Assembly (NCBI GenBank): GCA_022822725.1
Contig: JAJEAN010000007.1
Coordinates: 259,435 to 323,434 of the forward strand
Direction: 5' to 3'
Length of the DNA stretch: 64,000 nt
Source: Candidatus Latescibacterota bacterium
GTDB lineage: Bacteria > JAAXHH01
The notes below the pieces were generated by a model. The model was not told the origin of the DNA and ran no database searches. It was given only the letters and a program-made list of their open reading frames with translations. This document shows positions 18,898 through 29,109 of the stretch, piece by piece. Every line of letters begins with the position of its first letter. Position 1 is the stretch's first letter. A program made the translations under genes and the position numbers.

Positions 18898-20157
18898 ATG
18901 CTCTTCAATGCCGAACGAGCCAGGGCGTATATGCGGGATCGCGGACTCGACGGACTGATCGCGACCTCACCCGTGAATATCACCTATTTCACGGACTACT
19001 TCATCTGGATCGACGGACTCATGAAGGCGTACATGGTCCGACCCGGCGCATCGGCGGACCTGTCGCAGGGATACGCCTTGTTTCCGCTCGATGGCGAACC
19101 CGCGCTGGCGGTGACCGGAACGATGCTGGCCGTCAATGGCGTCGACCTGTGGGTGAAGGACCTGCGGGTCAGCGGTAATACCGGTCTCGACTGGTCCCTG
19201 CCGCCGAGGCCGCTGTCCGATCGAATGGACCGCATCTACCACCTCCTGAAGGGCGCGCCGGACTACGCCACGACCACCCAGGCGCTCGTCGGAGCCCTGA
19301 GCGACCGGGGCCTCGCCGCGGGGACGCTGGGTGTGGAAGCCGACGGCATGACCGCAGACCGGTACCGGCAACTGAAGGAAGCGCTGCCTGAAGCCCGGCT
19401 GCTCGACTGCTCCAACCTCGTCCGGCTGCTTCGCATGGTCAAGACCCGGGACGAGATCGACCGGCTCACCCAGGCGGCCGAGATCAGCGAAAAAGCGGCC
19501 ATGACGGCCATGGAACAGGCGAAGCCGGGAGACAACGTGCAGGAGGTCATTCACCGGTTCAGGGCGGAACTCGGTGCCCGGGGGGCGGACCTGGACCACT
19601 TCGCCTTCGGGGTCCACGGGCTCGGTATCGCGACGGAACCGGACTTCGTCCTGGGTGATTCCGACGTAGAGTACGTGGACTGGGGATGCCGGTTCCGGTC
19701 CTGCTATTCGGACACCGGGACCACCTTCGCCATGAAGCCGCTGTCGGACGACATGCAGGTCCGGTTCGACTTATTGCGGGCGTCCATGGATGCCGGCCTG
19801 GACGCGATTCGGCCCGGCGTCAAATCCTCGGCGGTACAGGCGGCCATGCAGGAGGTCGTCGACGAAGCGGGGCTCTCCATGTACCCCCATGGCCACGGTG
19901 TCGGCATGGAAGTGCGGGACTACCCCGTCCTGGCGCCGGACAACGGCCTGCGGATCTCCGATGACTGTATCGACGTACCATCGGATCTGCCCATTGAGGA
20001 AGACATGGTGCTCAACGTGGAAGCGCCGCTGAGTCTGGCCGGGGTCGGATCCCTGCACCTGGAACAGTCCGTCGTCGTGACGGCGAGCGGATCCCGTCCC
20101 CTCACGGAGCAGCGTCGGGACGGGCCGGTGTTTCCCAGGGGCGCTTCGGAGCAGTAA
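18898..20157 (+). CDS. M24-family (Xaa-Pro dipeptidase-like) metallopeptidase
   Basis: 419 residues: an N-terminal creatinase-like domain and a C-terminal pita-bread fold. All five metal-ligand positions can be placed: Asp in YVDWGC, Asp in YSDTGTTF, His in PHGHGVGMEV, Glu in MVLNVEAPL and Glu in HLEQSVVV. It is therefore likely an active di-metal enzyme cleaving an Xaa-Pro or related amide. The start lacks a strong Shine-Dalgarno. The two enolase-superfamily genes follow co-directionally (gap 29 bp to the first), which suggests a shared role in small-molecule catabolism, though no substrate can be named. Confidence 0.88.
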   Translation: MLFNAERARAYMRDRGLDGLIATSPVNITYFTDYFIWIDGLMKAYMVRPGASADLSQGYALFPLDGEPALAVTGTMLAVNGVDLWVKDLRVSGNTGLDWSLPPRPLSDRMDRIYHLLKGAPDYATTTQALVGALSDRGLAAGTLGVEADGMTADRYRQLKEALPEARLLDCSNLVRLLRMVKTRDEIDRLTQAAEISEKAAMTAMEQAKPGDNVQEVIHRFRAELGARGADLDHFAFGVHGLGIATEPDFVLGDSDVEYVDWGCRFRSCYSDTGTTFAMKPLSDDMQVRFDLLRASMDAGLDAIRPGVKSSAVQAAMQEVVDEAGLSMYPHGHGVGMEVRDYPVLAPDNGLRISDDCIDVPSDLPIEEDMVLNVEAPLSLAGVGSLHLEQSVVVTASGSRPLTEQRRDGPVFPRGASEQ

Positions 20158-20186
20158 GAGAAGATCAGAGTCGGCGTCAACATCCT

Positions 20187-21254
20187 ATGCAAATTACCCG
20201 CATCACACTGCACCAACCTGTAGGACTGCTACGCCTTGTGACCGACGAAGGGCTCGAAGGACACTGTACCGGGGTTACCTTCCCGGGCGCCGACGTTGGT
20301 CTGGTAGCGCCCATCCTGGTGGGTACGAACCCCCTGGACCGTGAACGGACCTGGTGGGTCCTGCGGGACCTGGACGAAGGACTGCCGTCAGCTTTACACG
20401 CCGGGATCGACGTCGCCCTCTGGGACCTCTCCGCGAAGATCGCCGGTCGGCCGCTCTTCCGGCACCTGGGCGGATTCAGGGACCGGGTTCCGGTCTGTCG
20501 GGTCGGCACCGCAGAAGGCACCACTAGCGTTACGGGCGCCTCCACTGGCGCTACGGGCGCCTCCGGCCCGGGGATCGTCAAGGAAGCGAAAGACGCGCAA
20601 CAGGCCGGATTCAAGGCCTACCGATTCGGCATGGCGGTGGACGAAAACGCCCTCGTCCAGGAAAACACCTTCGTCCACTTGATGCGCGAAGTGCGGGTGG
20701 CCGCTGGGCCGGATTTCCCTCTGATATTCGACGGCAGGGCCCGGTGCGAGGTCGACGAGGCTATCAGGATCGGCAAGACGCTCGACGAGGAGGACTATTT
20801 CTATTTCGACCGTCCCCGTCCCAGCAACGACCACACGGGCGGGAAGCAGGTGGCCGGCGAAATCGATACGCCGACCAGCGCGGAAGTCAGCAGCCCCATC
20901 GAGGCGTCCCGGGTCATGACGGTCCAGTCCGCGGACCATATCCGAAGCAGCGTGCAAAGCGCCGGCGGGATCACGGACGTATTGAAGGCCGCCCGCTGCG
21001 CCGAGGCGTTCGGCGCGTACTGCCATCTGGACGGTGCCGGGATCAGCGACTGCTTCGCGCACGTGCATCTCGCGGGCGCGCTCAGAAACACACCATTCCT
21101 CGAGATGTCGGGTCAAGAGGTCGCGCTGCCGTTCGTCCTGAACCCGGTACAGATCGAAGACGGCTTCGTCCATTTGCCCGATTCGCCGGGCCTCGGTATG
21201 GAAATCGACCTGGATACCGCCGGGGACATGACCTCGGAACTGATCGAAGCCTGA
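20187..21254 (+). CDS. Enolase-superfamily protein (mandelate racemase/muconate lactonizing-like), divergent active site
   Basis: 355 residues. The N-terminal capping domain is short and the barrel begins near SALHAGIDVALWDLSAKIAGRPL, a family signature. The expected metal ligands are altered: the first is Asp in LIFDGRARCE, but the second, usually Glu in an EEP motif, reads YFDRPRP. The third is unclear around SVQSAGGITD. The usual KxK acid/base pair is replaced by YRFGM. Either a different chemistry or a non-catalytic role is possible. Residues near 112-126 (Thr/Gly/Ala/Ser) are encoded by a 21-bp tandem repeat and form an insert between the capping and barrel regions. Confidence 0.8.
   Translation: MQITRITLHQPVGLLRLVTDEGLEGHCTGVTFPGADVGLVAPILVGTNPLDRERTWWVLRDLDEGLPSALHAGIDVALWDLSAKIAGRPLFRHLGGFRDRVPVCRVGTAEGTTSVTGASTGATGASGPGIVKEAKDAQQAGFKAYRFGMAVDENALVQENTFVHLMREVRVAAGPDFPLIFDGRARCEVDEAIRIGKTLDEEDYFYFDRPRPSNDHTGGKQVAGEIDTPTSAEVSSPIEASRVMTVQSADHIRSSVQSAGGITDVLKAARCAEAFGAYCHLDGAGISDCFAHVHLAGALRNTPFLEMSGQEVALPFVLNPVQIEDGFVHLPDSPGLGMEIDLDTAGDMTSELIEA
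20523..20564. repeat. 21-bp in-frame tandem repeat within the enolase-superfamily gene
   Basis: Two 21-bp units (20523-20543 and 20544-20564) sharing TACGGGCGCCTCC. They encode the Thr/Gly/Ala/Ser insert; 21 bp keeps the frame. Confidence 0.85.
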
Positions 21255-21256
21255 AA

Positions 21257-21314
21257 CGGCGCGGCCGGTTGAACATCGGCGCAGCCGTCTGAAGGTCGGC
21301 GCAGCCGTCTGAAC
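21257..21314. repeat. 20-bp tandem repeat between the two enolase-superfamily genes
   Basis: Units begin at 21257, 21277 and 21297 (the last 18 bp long) and share CGGCGCAGCCGTCTGAA. The array starts 2 nt after the TGA of the upstream gene. Confidence 0.92.
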
Positions 21315-21325
21315 AAGGAACCCTC

Positions 21326-22525
21326 ATGCAGATCCGGGACGTCAAGTGCTACGTGCTGAAGGATGAACCCGAAACGCGCCGGGAGTGCAGTGCGGACCGG
21401 GGCAGCATGGCGCCTGTGCCACCGGGTATCTCAGGATTGTTTACCCATGACCAGGGGTTCGGCGCCGGTGCGCCCGACGGATACACTTTCACCGGGGACG
21501 CCCCCGAACCGAAGTACCGGCTGGTAGTCCGCCTCGTGACGGACGGAGATCTGGACGCCTATGCCGACTACGGCACGGGTTTCGATCCCCGGGAACTGGA
21601 GTGGCAGGGCCGCCAGTTCCTGGCCCGGTACGCCCACATGCTCATTGGCGTGGACGCCTTCGACCGGGAATACGTGTGGCAGCGGCTGTGGATGGCCCAG
21701 CGCTTCATGTACACGGGAAGAGGCTTGCTGGATACGGTCGACCGGATGTTGTGGGACCTGGCGAGCCGGAGTGCCCGCCTACCCATCTACAAACTGCTCG
21801 GTGCGTGCCGGGAAAGCGTGCCCGCTTACTGCAACGTGGGCGGCCGCACCATCGACGACCTGGTGGCCCACGCGGTGCAACGCGTGGAAGAGGAGGGATT
21901 CATCGGCTGCAAGGATCATTCCTACCGGGGTGTAAAAGCCAACGGGGAAATGGCCGTGAAACTGCGGGACGCGCTCGGTGACGACATCATGCTCTTTCAC
22001 GATCCCGTCGAGTCGTACACCTATGAAGAAGCCGTGAAAATCGGACGCATCATGGAGAAGTGCCGGTACCGGTGGATCGAGGAGCCCTTGCAGGACTACG
22101 ACATCATGGGGCTGAAAAAGCTGTGCGCCACCCTCGACCTCCCGGTCCTGACCCTGGAATGGATCGGTGCCATCGGTGGTCAGCCGTACAACACGGCGCC
22201 GTACCTGGCCATGCAGGCCGCCGATATCGTAAGGCAGCGGGGCATCGGCATTACCGGGCAGATCAAGCAGGCCCAGTTGGCCGAGAGTTTCGGCGTGGAG
22301 GTACATGGAGGCGATCACCACGTCATCCTGGCCATCGGGAACGACCCCGTCTTCGAAGCGTACATGGGGTTACAACCACGTCCACCGGTAGAGGAACTCG
22401 ACTGCCGGGGCACACTCGTCGTGGAAGACGGCGCCATGTCGATCGCCTGGAGCGACCGTCCCGCGCCAGAACCGGACTGGGACGAGATGGCGCGGAGCGC
22501 GGTTGCGGTTATGGGAACCAGGTGA
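21326..22525 (+). CDS. Enolase-superfamily dehydratase/racemase (mandelate racemase-like)
   Basis: 399 residues with a canonical set of active-site motifs: Asp in LFHDPVES, Glu in RWIEEPLQD, Glu in TLEWIG, and a barrel-end His in EVHGGDHH that fits the general base/acid of mandelate racemase-type sugar-acid dehydratases. The lid region MLWDLASRSARLPIYKLLG is typical. Likely substrate class: an acid sugar or hydroxy acid. AAGGA lies 6 nt before the ATG. It is the last gene before the AT-rich island; its stop is about 30 bp from a sharp fall in GC. Confidence 0.88.
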   Translation: MQIRDVKCYVLKDEPETRRECSADRGSMAPVPPGISGLFTHDQGFGAGAPDGYTFTGDAPEPKYRLVVRLVTDGDLDAYADYGTGFDPRELEWQGRQFLARYAHMLIGVDAFDREYVWQRLWMAQRFMYTGRGLLDTVDRMLWDLASRSARLPIYKLLGACRESVPAYCNVGGRTIDDLVAHAVQRVEEEGFIGCKDHSYRGVKANGEMAVKLRDALGDDIMLFHDPVESYTYEEAVKIGRIMEKCRYRWIEEPLQDYDIMGLKKLCATLDLPVLTLEWIGAIGGQPYNTAPYLAMQAADIVRQRGIGITGQIKQAQLAESFGVEVHGGDHHVILAIGNDPVFEAYMGLQPRPPVEELDCRGTLVVEDGAMSIAWSDRPAPEPDWDEMARSAVAVMGTR

Positions 22526-22555
22526 TTGATTGCTCAAAGTGCGGTCATAGTGTAT

Positions 22556-22573
22556 TGAGATTGGCGAATCTCA
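22556..22573. other. Perfect 7-bp stem-loop at the left edge of the AT-rich island
   Basis: TGAGATT, four-base loop GGCG, AATCTCA. It has no following T-run and so is a poor terminator. It marks the transition from 60%-type GC to the AT-richer segment. Confidence 0.35.
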
Positions 22574-22601
22574 GAATCGATAGACTTCGACCATCACCGG
22601 A

Positions 22602-23752
22602 ATGCTGCTGTTTGGGGTGAATCCCGATGAGGTATCGCTCAATAAGCATCTGTGCTTAAATTCCATATCGGGGCGATGTCAGCACAAGAGATCCGTACCA
22701 TTAGTTACCCAACGTGGCCACGGATTCGCTTTTTATAGGAGAGTAGCACAGAGTGACGGTAAGGAGACAAACACCGGACTCGGACTTTCGGATGTCGAGG
22801 CATTCGTAGGCTTGGTTGACCATGGTTTATTCTGTGAAAAACTACCGCCATGCCTTACGTCTGAAGGGCTTTCAGACCAAGTACCTGACGTTCTTCATGA
22901 TCTTACCATAGAAGATAACGAAAAGGAATTGATAATGAGATGACCCGGAAGGGATACTATCGTTTTCACCGGTATATTGACGATTACACCTTTTATGCTA
23001 AAACCCACGACGAGGCTGAACAGTTTATCCATGATCTTGGAATGCAACTGCGCGAATACGAGCTTTTTCTGAACGGGAGTAAGACTGAAATCTTACCGTT
23101 GCCACTTCCAATCAGTGAAGAATGGGTTCGAGAATTAACCAATTTCGGGTTGCCTGCGAAAGGCAAGACAGTTCACTTCAAGACTGTTCGTTCACTTCTA
23201 GACCTGGCACTGAAACTAGCACATGGAGCGGGGACCTACGCAGATTTGAATCACGCCTTTAAAATGGTCCCTCAGACACTCGATAGTCGAGCGAAGCGCC
23301 TCTTCGTTCAGGAGAGTGTTAACTTAGCACTTATTTATCCGTATCTTGCTCCTATCTTAGACGAGCACGTGTTCGACAGGCATCGCTATGATGGGATCGA
23401 GAAAGTCATTCTTGAATTCTCTAAACAACTCCTAACGATTGGAATTCAAAGGATTTTACCAGATGCCATCGCCCATGCACTGTACTACTCGCTCAAACAT
23501 CGCCTTCAATTGACTACACCTGCGGAGAAGCTTCTAGAGATAATCAAGATAGATGACTGTATTTCAGATGTGTTACTACTGGAATATGTAAAACGTTACA
23601 GAGTTGATAACACCCGGAATGCGATACGGAAACGTACGAATATGCTGAAAGGTATGGACAGTCAAGAGAAGGACCGCTTTTGGCTTCTGATTTATCAAGT
23701 GTGGGACACGAATACATTAAGAGACGAAGCCAATCGTATTTGGCCGAGTTGA
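22602..23752 (+). pseudogene. Broken reverse transcriptase, probably of the defence-associated (UG/Abi-like) group
   Basis: Two adjoining frames look like the ends of one gene. The first (22602-22943) carries an N-terminal RT-like stretch, GLFCEKLPPCLTSEGLSDQVP. The second (22940-23752, 270 residues) opens with RYIDDYTFYAKTHDEAEQF, the YxDD catalytic loop, then LNGSKTEILPLP and a long helical C-terminal region like those of UG/Abi RTs. The fingers and palm motifs expected between them, roughly 200 residues including the first catalytic Asp, are absent, and the frame shifts at the junction (ATGA overlap). Internal deletion is the simplest explanation. No polymerase activity is expected. Base composition is clearly AT-richer than its neighbours, a sign of transfer. 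Confidence 0.65.
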
Positions 23753-23783
23753 AACAAAAGCGATTTAGCTTTGTAAGAATCTG

Positions 23784-23936
23784 ATGGATTTTCGTAAAAT
23801 CAAAATCAGTGAAAACAAACAATGTTCCATGTTGATCGACTACTCCGGTTCTTTTCGGGTGGTGCACGACAACGAGGTTTACATATACTTAGGATTGGTC
23901 AAGATTTATGCAAATAGGTACATGAAAGGTAGTTAA
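23784..23936 (+). CDS. Small ORF in the island, function unknown
   Basis: 50 residues from ATG 23784 to TAA 23936, beginning MDFRKIKISENKQ and ending NRYMKGS. The composition (Lys, Ile, Glu, Tyr) is protein-like rather than random. It lies 31 bp behind the reverse transcriptase remnant and before the MNT/HEPN pair. No Shine-Dalgarno is evident. It may be a fragment of a larger lost gene. The remainder of 23753-24035 shows nothing else recognisable. Confidence 0.3.
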   Translation: MDFRKIKISENKQCSMLIDYSGSFRVVHDNEVYIYLGLVKIYANRYMKGS

Positions 23937-24035
23937 CAGAAAATTGAAATAAGAGTGTTTCAATTGCCCGATTTGATTGGGGAAGGCGAAGAGTGTAACG
24001 GATTACCCCCAAACAAATGATGATAGAGAGACACT

Positions 24036-24362
24036 ATGAACAAAGGTAAGCTCGACCCGCAAATCTTGGACGAAATCATCCGACGCGTTGTAGAGGTGGC
24101 GGAGCCGGAGAAGATAATCCTATTCGGGTCTGCCGCCCGCGGCGAGATGAACCGGCACAGCGATGTCGATCTGCTTGTTGTCAAAGAAGGTATGCACAGG
24201 CGGGACCTGGCCGGTCGAATATACGAAAACCTCTGGGGTGTAGGCGCCGCAGTAGACGTGGTGGTGGTGACGCCCGGCGATATGGAGCGATATGGAAACA
24301 GCCACGCGTTGGTCCTGAAGCCTGCATTGAAGGAAGGTCGGGTGGTGTATGAAGCGGCCTGA
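24036..24362 (+). CDS. MNT-type nucleotidyltransferase antitoxin
   Basis: 108 residues, minimal nucleotidyltransferase. The active-site signature ILFGSAARGE near residue 30 is followed by SDVDLLVV, whose two Asp residues bind metal. In HEPN/MNT (type VII) modules such a protein neutralises the partner HEPN RNase by AMPylation of a Tyr near its active site. It overlaps the HEPN gene by 14 nt, so the two are translationally coupled. GAGAG precedes the ATG. GC is closer to the chromosomal average than in the preceding RT remnant. Confidence 0.88.
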   Translation: MNKGKLDPQILDEIIRRVVEVAEPEKIILFGSAARGEMNRHSDVDLLVVKEGMHRRDLAGRIYENLWGVGAAVDVVVVTPGDMERYGNSHALVLKPALKEGRVVYEAA

Positions 24363-24744
24363 ACGATTGCCTTCAGACAACCCGCGCGAATGGTTGAATC
24401 GCGCTCAAAGCAATCTGGGCCTGGACAAGAGCCTTGTTCCCCATATCTACCTGGAGGATTACTGCTTCAACGCCCAGCAGGCAGCGGAGAAGGCCATCAA
24501 GGCAGTGATGGTTCTGCGAGGTATCGAGTTTCCGTATATACATGACTTGACCCGCTTGATGTCGATGCTTGAAGCCAGCGGAGAGACCATTCCTGATCCA
24601 GTTCGTCGAGCCGCGGTACTCACGCGCTTTGCAGCACAGACACGATATCCCAGCGTGGAAGAACCAGTTACCAAGCAAGAGTACACCGAGGCCATCGCTA
24701 TCGCAGAAGCCGTTCTCCACTGGGCGGAGGATCGCATCCAATGA
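24349..24744 (+). CDS. HEPN-domain protein, probable RNase toxin of an HEPN/MNT pair
   Basis: 131 residues, all-helical HEPN domain. The signature segment DYCFNAQQAAEKAIKAVM near residue 40 and FPYIHDLTRL near 63 are typical of the family that pairs with MNT proteins. RFAAQTRYP near residue 93 provides the conserved Arg and the Tyr that can be modified by the partner. In characterised pairs this protein cleaves RNA or tRNA unless AMPylated. The start overlaps the MNT stop. Activity here is inferred from the family. Confidence 0.85.
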   Translation: MKRPERLPSDNPREWLNRAQSNLGLDKSLVPHIYLEDYCFNAQQAAEKAIKAVMVLRGIEFPYIHDLTRLMSMLEASGETIPDPVRRAAVLTRFAAQTRYPSVEEPVTKQEYTEAIAIAEAVLHWAEDRIQ

Positions 24745-24822
24745 TCTCACGTAAGTACAAGTGCCTCTTCGAAATCAGCTCTAGCAAAAGACCAATCAAC
24801 CACGTCAGAATGTGGAGCGAAC

Positions 24823-28470: not shown

Positions 28471-28683
28471 GGCGTTCTTTCTGGACGTAAGTTTTGTAAA
28501 TCCGCATCCTTCTTCGAAGTCTTTCAGCATCTCATCGTCCGCCCCCGGAAGATATGGCAGGGGATACGCTCCTCTGCGGCCTTCCTGATTGCCGGACGCG
28601 CACTTGCCAACACGTCCCCACCCAACGCGTGGATAATCCGCATCCTCGTATCCGCCCGGGTGCCGTGCCGATGTCGCTACCTC

Positions 28684-28754
28684 TTGACTCGGTGATTCCG
28701 GAACGATATATTCAGTATAAAATTGGGACCGTATTAATTACATGTAAATTGGGA
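28684..28754 (+). promoter_or_regulatory. higBA promoter and possible operator
   Basis: TTGACT (28684-28689), 17-bp spacer, TATATT (28707-28712). Just downstream, AAATTGGGA occurs at 28720-28728 and 28746-28754, a direct repeat 26 bp apart, with a near-palindrome around ACATGT between them. This is a plausible site for autorepression by the HigA-like protein. The rest of 28471-28815 shows no gene. Confidence 0.55.
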
Positions 28755-28815
28755 ACATTTGCAATGGTCACAGAAACTGTCGCTAGAAGTAACACTCAGC
28801 AGTTTCGGGAACTTC

Positions 28816-29109
28816 ATGCGCATTATAGCAAAAAAGACACTTAGAGCGTTCTGGAACCGTCATCCTGATGCTGAGCGACCTTTACTCGCCTGGTACAGGG
28901 AAGTTAAATCGGAGGACTGGGAAACACCTGCCAGGATCAAGGAAAAGTACGGAAAAGCCAGTATCATAGGTGGGAATCGAGTGGTCTTCGATATCAAAGG
29001 CAACAGCTATCGCTTAGTGGCAGAGGTCGATTACCCTCATCGAACGGTACGAATAAGGTTTATCGGGACGCACGATCAATATGCCGGGATAGACGCGAAA
29101 AGGATATAG
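28816..29109 (+). CDS. higB: HigB-family mRNA interferase toxin
   Basis: 97 residues, the usual HigB length. MRIIAKKTLRAFW, AWYREVKSEDWETPARIKEKYG and VVFDIKGNSYRLVAEV followed by IRFIGTHDQYAGID match the HigB subgroup of RelE-fold toxins that cut mRNA on the ribosome. The start at 28816 gives the conserved N-terminus; the longer frame from 28759 adds non-conserved residues. It precedes its antitoxin gene by 2 nt, the toxin-first order typical of hig loci. Confidence 0.92.
   Translation: MRIIAKKTLRAFWNRHPDAERPLLAWYREVKSEDWETPARIKEKYGKASIIGGNRVVFDIKGNSYRLVAEVDYPHRTVRIRFIGTHDQYAGIDAKRI

Follow-up and report, generated by a model that had tools for sequence, protein, structure and literature searches.

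The window, that is, the whole 64,000-nucleotide stretch of a Latescibacterota genome analyzed here, carries two overlapping ORFs in different frames of the plus strand, followed by an intact pair of antitoxin-like and toxin-like genes, all within the gap between a mandelate-racemase/enolase-like gene and a Gfo/Idh gene. A reading of the sequence alone, made without database searches, had described the two ORFs as the ends of a reverse transcriptase (RT) that had lost its catalytic middle. The features are the following.

22602-22943, plus strand: ORF 1 of the sequence-only reading (113 aa), of which only the second half belongs to drt4
22940-23752, plus strand: ORF 2 of the same reading (270 aa), with an ATG that overlaps the ORF 1 stop (ATGA)
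22756-22930, plus strand: 5' remnant of drt4 (residues 1-58), from pairwise alignment with the relatives L006 and G011 and from the Drt4 profile match of ORF 1
22926-22930, plus strand: deletion junction, with 517 nt missing and GAATT common to both aligned sides
22926-23784, plus strand: 3' remnant of drt4 (residue 230 to the end), from the Drt4 profile match (E 3.1e-67), the alignments and the frames
22513-24790 (ends approximate), no strand assigned: variable island, from comparison with the corresponding gaps of congeneric genomes
24036-24362, plus strand: intact MNT-type nucleotidyltransferase, antitoxin-like (NTP_transf_2, E 3e-12)
24349-24744, plus strand: intact HEPN-domain protein, toxin-like (PF05168, E 1.7e-25)

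Family assignment of the two reverse transcriptase pieces

For ORF 1 and ORF 2 alike, the top PADLOC profile is Drt4 (PDLC02178), with profile positions 12-47 matching residues 62-99 of ORF 1 (E 2e-5) and positions 231-488 of 506 matching residues 3-263 of ORF 2 (E 3.1e-67). ORF 2 scores 225.7 bits against this profile and 93.1 bits against Drt6, and its best NCBIfam model is the NCBI Drt4 model NF041749 (201.6 bits, below a curated cut-off of 450 bits that is set for the full protein). The Pfam signal is limited to RVT_1 in ORF 2 (E 4e-5), ORF 1 having no Pfam match. ORF 2 starts just upstream of the YIDDY loop, and the description of the locus as two RT pieces in different frames, the second opening immediately before this loop, was thus accurate. 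With regard to ORF 1, that description applies to the second half and fails for the first ~55 codons, which lie upstream of the drt4-homologous frame. The placement of the gene in the UG/Abi/DRT group rather than among group II introns was also correct (E 3.1e-67 for Drt4 versus 5.6e-5 for TIGR04416); a group II intron RT was rejected because the TIGR04416 score is 22.4 bits against a cut-off of 300.

A scan of one genome per species, covering 84,980 species, yielded four loci, each with one open gene of 515-516 codons: an intact drt4 encoding 516 residues in a Latescibacterota MAG (L006), and intact drt4 genes in a Gemmatimonadota MAG (L007) and in two Chloroflexi MAGs (L008 and L009). All four encode a complete RT core with what we take to be motifs A, B and C of these enzymes, and all four match nearly the entire PADLOC Drt4 profile with 463-508 bits, compared to 313-320 bits for Drt6, presumably the same as UG12 (507.7 versus 320.2 bits in the case of L006). 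DRT6, which is related to DRT4 according to a review (PMC13213688), is the best-scoring PADLOC family other than those named Drt4, and trails Drt4 by ~150-190 bits in the intact relatives. On these scores, the unlisted RT subgroup that the sequence-only reading had envisaged as a possibility is not supported. Because L006 slightly misses the NF041749 cut-off (433.9 bits, 16 below the threshold of 450), the intact relatives are somewhat divergent Drt4 proteins.

The solved structures that best match L006 by sequence are RTs, one of them labelled UG15 (E 6.5e-52). In the alignment with solved RTs, the motif A segment 'NADIS' stands opposite 'HTDIS' of L006, a segment that is absent from the window copy, and 'RYIDDYT' stands opposite motif C. 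We take UG15 and DRT4 to be one and the same, which is consistent with these structure matches. DRT4/UG15 (PADLOC PDLC02178 and PDLC03752; NCBIfam NF041749; PDB 21ou, 9vdo and 9ltm by sequence) is accordingly the best match both for the window pieces and for L006-L009. The likeness includes the conserved YIDDY loop and a predicted long helical C-terminus; the difference is that the window copy lacks residues 58-229, with motifs A and B, and contains two further frameshifts. The predicted model of L006 has a poor mean pLDDT of 45.7, derived from an alignment of only four rows, and shows helices across 294-470, a region in which pLDDT is 63-88 for most 10-residue blocks despite the poor overall confidence. 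This helical domain is kept in the window copy, ORF 2 being aligned with L006 up to residue 500.

Lesions and the fate of the surviving ORF

Both pieces align to L006 as a single full-length protein, with the palm motifs falling in the gap, which is the support that the sequence-only reading had asked for: the window covers residues 3-59 (65% identity) and 231-500 (74% identity) of L006 in a tblastn comparison, with 76% DNA identity in both parts (E 6e-36 and 4e-177). In the pairwise alignment, 517 nt of L006 (4470-4986), corresponding to residues 58-229, are missing from the window, including the DIS of motif A (residue 162) and motif B (QTNGLLIGPHPS, residue 209; QTNG). The gap is therefore real but comprises 172 residues, a third of the protein, not the ~200 that had been estimated, and since 517 is not divisible by three, it accounts for the frame change that had been noticed. 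The microhomology at the junction is weak, being restricted to GAATT, and the left copy in L006 reads AAATT, with one mismatch. The YIDDY loop (L006 residue 246) and the helical C-terminus are retained.

Two additional lesions had been missed, namely, 1-nt deletions between 22772 and 22773 and between about 23728 and 23729; beyond the latter, the true C-terminus, YLAELKQKRFSFVRI, continues in another frame up to a stop at 23782-23784. The start codon, ATG in the intact relatives, is ACG in the window; given the GTG one codon upstream, loss of the start is not proven. A four-sequence MAFFT alignment misplaces the 5' part of the window copy, and the 5' lesion and the junction were taken from the pairwise alignments. 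When motifs A, B and C were inspected in the window copy, YIDD alone was found to be kept, A and B being deleted. The incomplete RT core makes the window copy a pseudogene of the family rather than a functional member; judging from its sequence, the gene cannot give rise to a working polymerase. The suggestion that an antiphage RT gene had been inactivated was thus sound, and we consider it highly probable that the locus is a DRT4 (UG15) pseudogene, DRT4 being an antiphage system that consists of a single gene.

Compared with a decayed copy in a congener (G011, see below), dN/dS is 0.17 over 255 shared codons. The window branch accumulated 40 silent and 38 nonsilent changes and no stops (40 and 39 under a slightly different mask), that is, a nonsynonymous share of 38/78. 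The mean share in 2000 neutral simulations was 0.708, and none of the 2000 was as low as the window branch; ORF 2 is without a stop in 259 codons, as were 155 of the 2000 fully neutral runs of that branch length. The nonsynonymous share falls between constraint and neutrality, as expected for a gene under selection that died late, and we read drt4 as having been constrained for most of its history and having died recently.

The same observations bear on the possibility that ORF 2 is still translated and has been retained, catalytically inactive, as a helper, a decoy or an inhibitor of other DRTs, which we consider very unlikely; equally improbable is its more specific form, in which the product would be an inert DRT4 thumb/helical domain that, for example, poisons or tunes other DRTs or binds a phage protein. 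The 270 open codons, a nonsynonymous share under that of all 2000 neutral runs, the rarity of stop-free runs (just 155 of 2000) and the ATGA overlap with ORF 1 all speak for translation and retention, but the same signal is expected after recent gene death, and the ATGA is the ancestral Met codon out of frame, which also occurs in G011. Furthermore, the conserved C-terminal end has been lost through a 1-nt deletion, and the window's genome lacks a second gene copy to modulate, a search of that genome having found one drt4. An assembly artefact, whereby the gene of the organism would be intact and collapsed or mis-joined in the assembly, seems even less plausible: the assembly (9 contigs, 97.79% complete, 3.2% contamination) resembles a metagenome bin, a status that we infer, and the two 1-nt lesions could be assembly errors, but a 517-nt deletion is hardly explicable in this manner, the two sides of the junction share ~5 nt, too little to collapse, and long neighbouring ORFs are open, the longest in the window reaching 1281 aa. 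Finally, the notion of two unrelated ORFs that resemble halves of one RT, or of a naturally short RT family, draws little support from the weak (ORF 2) or missing (ORF 1) Pfam signal and is refuted by the matches of both pieces to the same Drt4 profile, in the same order, and by their joint coverage by one full-length relative.

A variable site with a second decayed copy

One of the 11 congeneric genomes, G011, contains drt4 at the same chromosomal site (C178:29886-31432), between the same two flanking genes. This copy is full length and is disrupted by five frame-changing indels (+1, -1, +1, -4 and +5). Because none of these is shared with the window, the alignments indicate that the two copies decayed independently. 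In the phylogenetic tree, the drt4 copies of the window and G011 form a group apart from L006-L009 (ultrafast bootstrap 93), which is consistent with a single arrival of drt4 and later losses. Exchange of drt4 between species may be another route; given that drt4 is missing from G005, which the enolase-like gene places as the nearest sister, either exchange or several losses are needed.

Neither the 10 remaining congeners nor four further genomes of the phylum yielded a drt4 in the Drt4 profile search. Matches to the profile were found in 4 of 16 phylum genomes, two of which (G005 and G007) represent other RTs and were rejected as drt4. The one in G005 is an intact UG20 RT elsewhere in the genome (529 aa, PADLOC E 1.3e-184; L052 850-2439, minus strand; G005:C1 about 1690981-1691538). 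The RT of G007 appears, from its YADD and layout, to be of the group II intron type. No intact drt4 was found in the 15 other genomes of the same phylum that were searched, where the single sister copy is likewise disrupted; the intact relatives that were found are those in L006-L009. With ORF 2 as the query, 3 of 191 genomes matched, including the window's own, the third (G111) weakly and over 47 residues; with L006, 7 of 143 genomes matched, five of them weakly (3e-8 or worse). A tblastn search of viral contigs revealed no drt4 relative. Carriage by phages was rejected, as the nine phage records that match all fall short of 80% coverage of L006 (the largest covers 37% at 27.5% identity), and so was a plasmid source, the one record among 219 matching plasmid records that covers 91% being too distant (28.5% identity).

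The genes that flank the site are nearly universal among the 12 genomes of the genus, the window's included: the mandelate-racemase/enolase-like gene is found in 11 (counted at a best match of at least 89%; that in G004 is only 32%) and the Gfo/Idh gene in all 12. The gap that they enclose was read in 11 of the 12 genomes, G004 being left out because its contig starts inside the Gfo/Idh gene; in G006 the gap spans two contigs. Its content differs from genome to genome. The flanking genes are separated by 31-74 bp, with the gap empty or nearly so, in G003, G007 and G009; G002, G008 and G006 carry a ribbon-helix-helix (RHH) and PIN pair (identified with Pfam in G002 and by likeness in G008 and G006); G001 and G010 carry an MNT gene and an interrupted HEPN gene; G005 carries an RHH gene, a cut PIN gene and an MNT-HEPN pair; and G011 and the window carry drt4 with MNT-HEPN, the HEPN gene of G011 being in two pieces. 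Thus, a single intergenic site holds small defence or toxin-antitoxin-like cargo that changes across the genus. The GC content of the gap in the window is 0.476, compared to 0.643 at 20001-22000, and the ORF lists for this gap in the window and in G001-G011 include no integrase-like gene.

The MNT-type gene of the window scores 31.9 bits with the MntA_antitoxin model, under the 60-bit cut-off. Synonymous divergence between the MNT-HEPN pairs of the window (24036-24744) and G005 is 0.022-0.026, far below the 0.157 of the neighbouring enolase-like gene, which suggests a recent exchange of the pair between the two species. Intact drt4 genes also occur beside toxin-antitoxin-like genes, namely, a FitA-like RHH and PIN pair in L006 and L007 (3502-4233; identified with Pfam in L006 only), and an MNT-type protein adjoins the drt4 of L008 (3552-3896). 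Elsewhere in the window, a gene for a HigB-type toxin (PF09907, E 7.6e-28) preceded by a small unnamed ORF (28554-29109) is possibly another toxin-antitoxin pair.

Ancestral function and loss

UG15 is listed as an RT class in one source (PMC8934634). According to two reviews, DRT4 is a single protein whose product, primed on a tyrosine and made with no template, is random single-stranded DNA; the phage protein ORF55 protects this product, which thereby becomes toxic (PMC13213688; PMC13314766). A limited search of the literature on DRT4 and on decayed DRT and defence genes yielded nothing on this locus.

By analogy, the ancestor of the window gene would have been an RT of ~516 residues that functioned as the single-gene antiphage system DRT4 (UG15). 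Under the published model, the enzyme would prime on its own tyrosine and synthesize random ssDNA, and shielding of this DNA by a phage DNA-binding protein would render it toxic, so that the infected cell would be stopped. The 517-nt deletion, which probably occurred between short similar sequences around GAATT, removed residues 58-229, so that motif A with its catalytic aspartate, the first of the enzyme, and motif B were lost and the reading frame changed; the two 1-nt deletions are additional damage. Lacking motif A, the window copy should be unable to carry out template-independent DNA synthesis, and the remaining 270-aa ORF is most likely inactive.

The locus is a defence gene of known type that was inactivated recently and lies at a small variable site; other bacteria hold intact copies. 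The DRT4 gene was lost by two independent routes from the same position in related species, next to toxin-antitoxin-like genes that are themselves gained and lost there. The locus fits the general picture of fast gain and loss of defence genes, to which it adds no new system.
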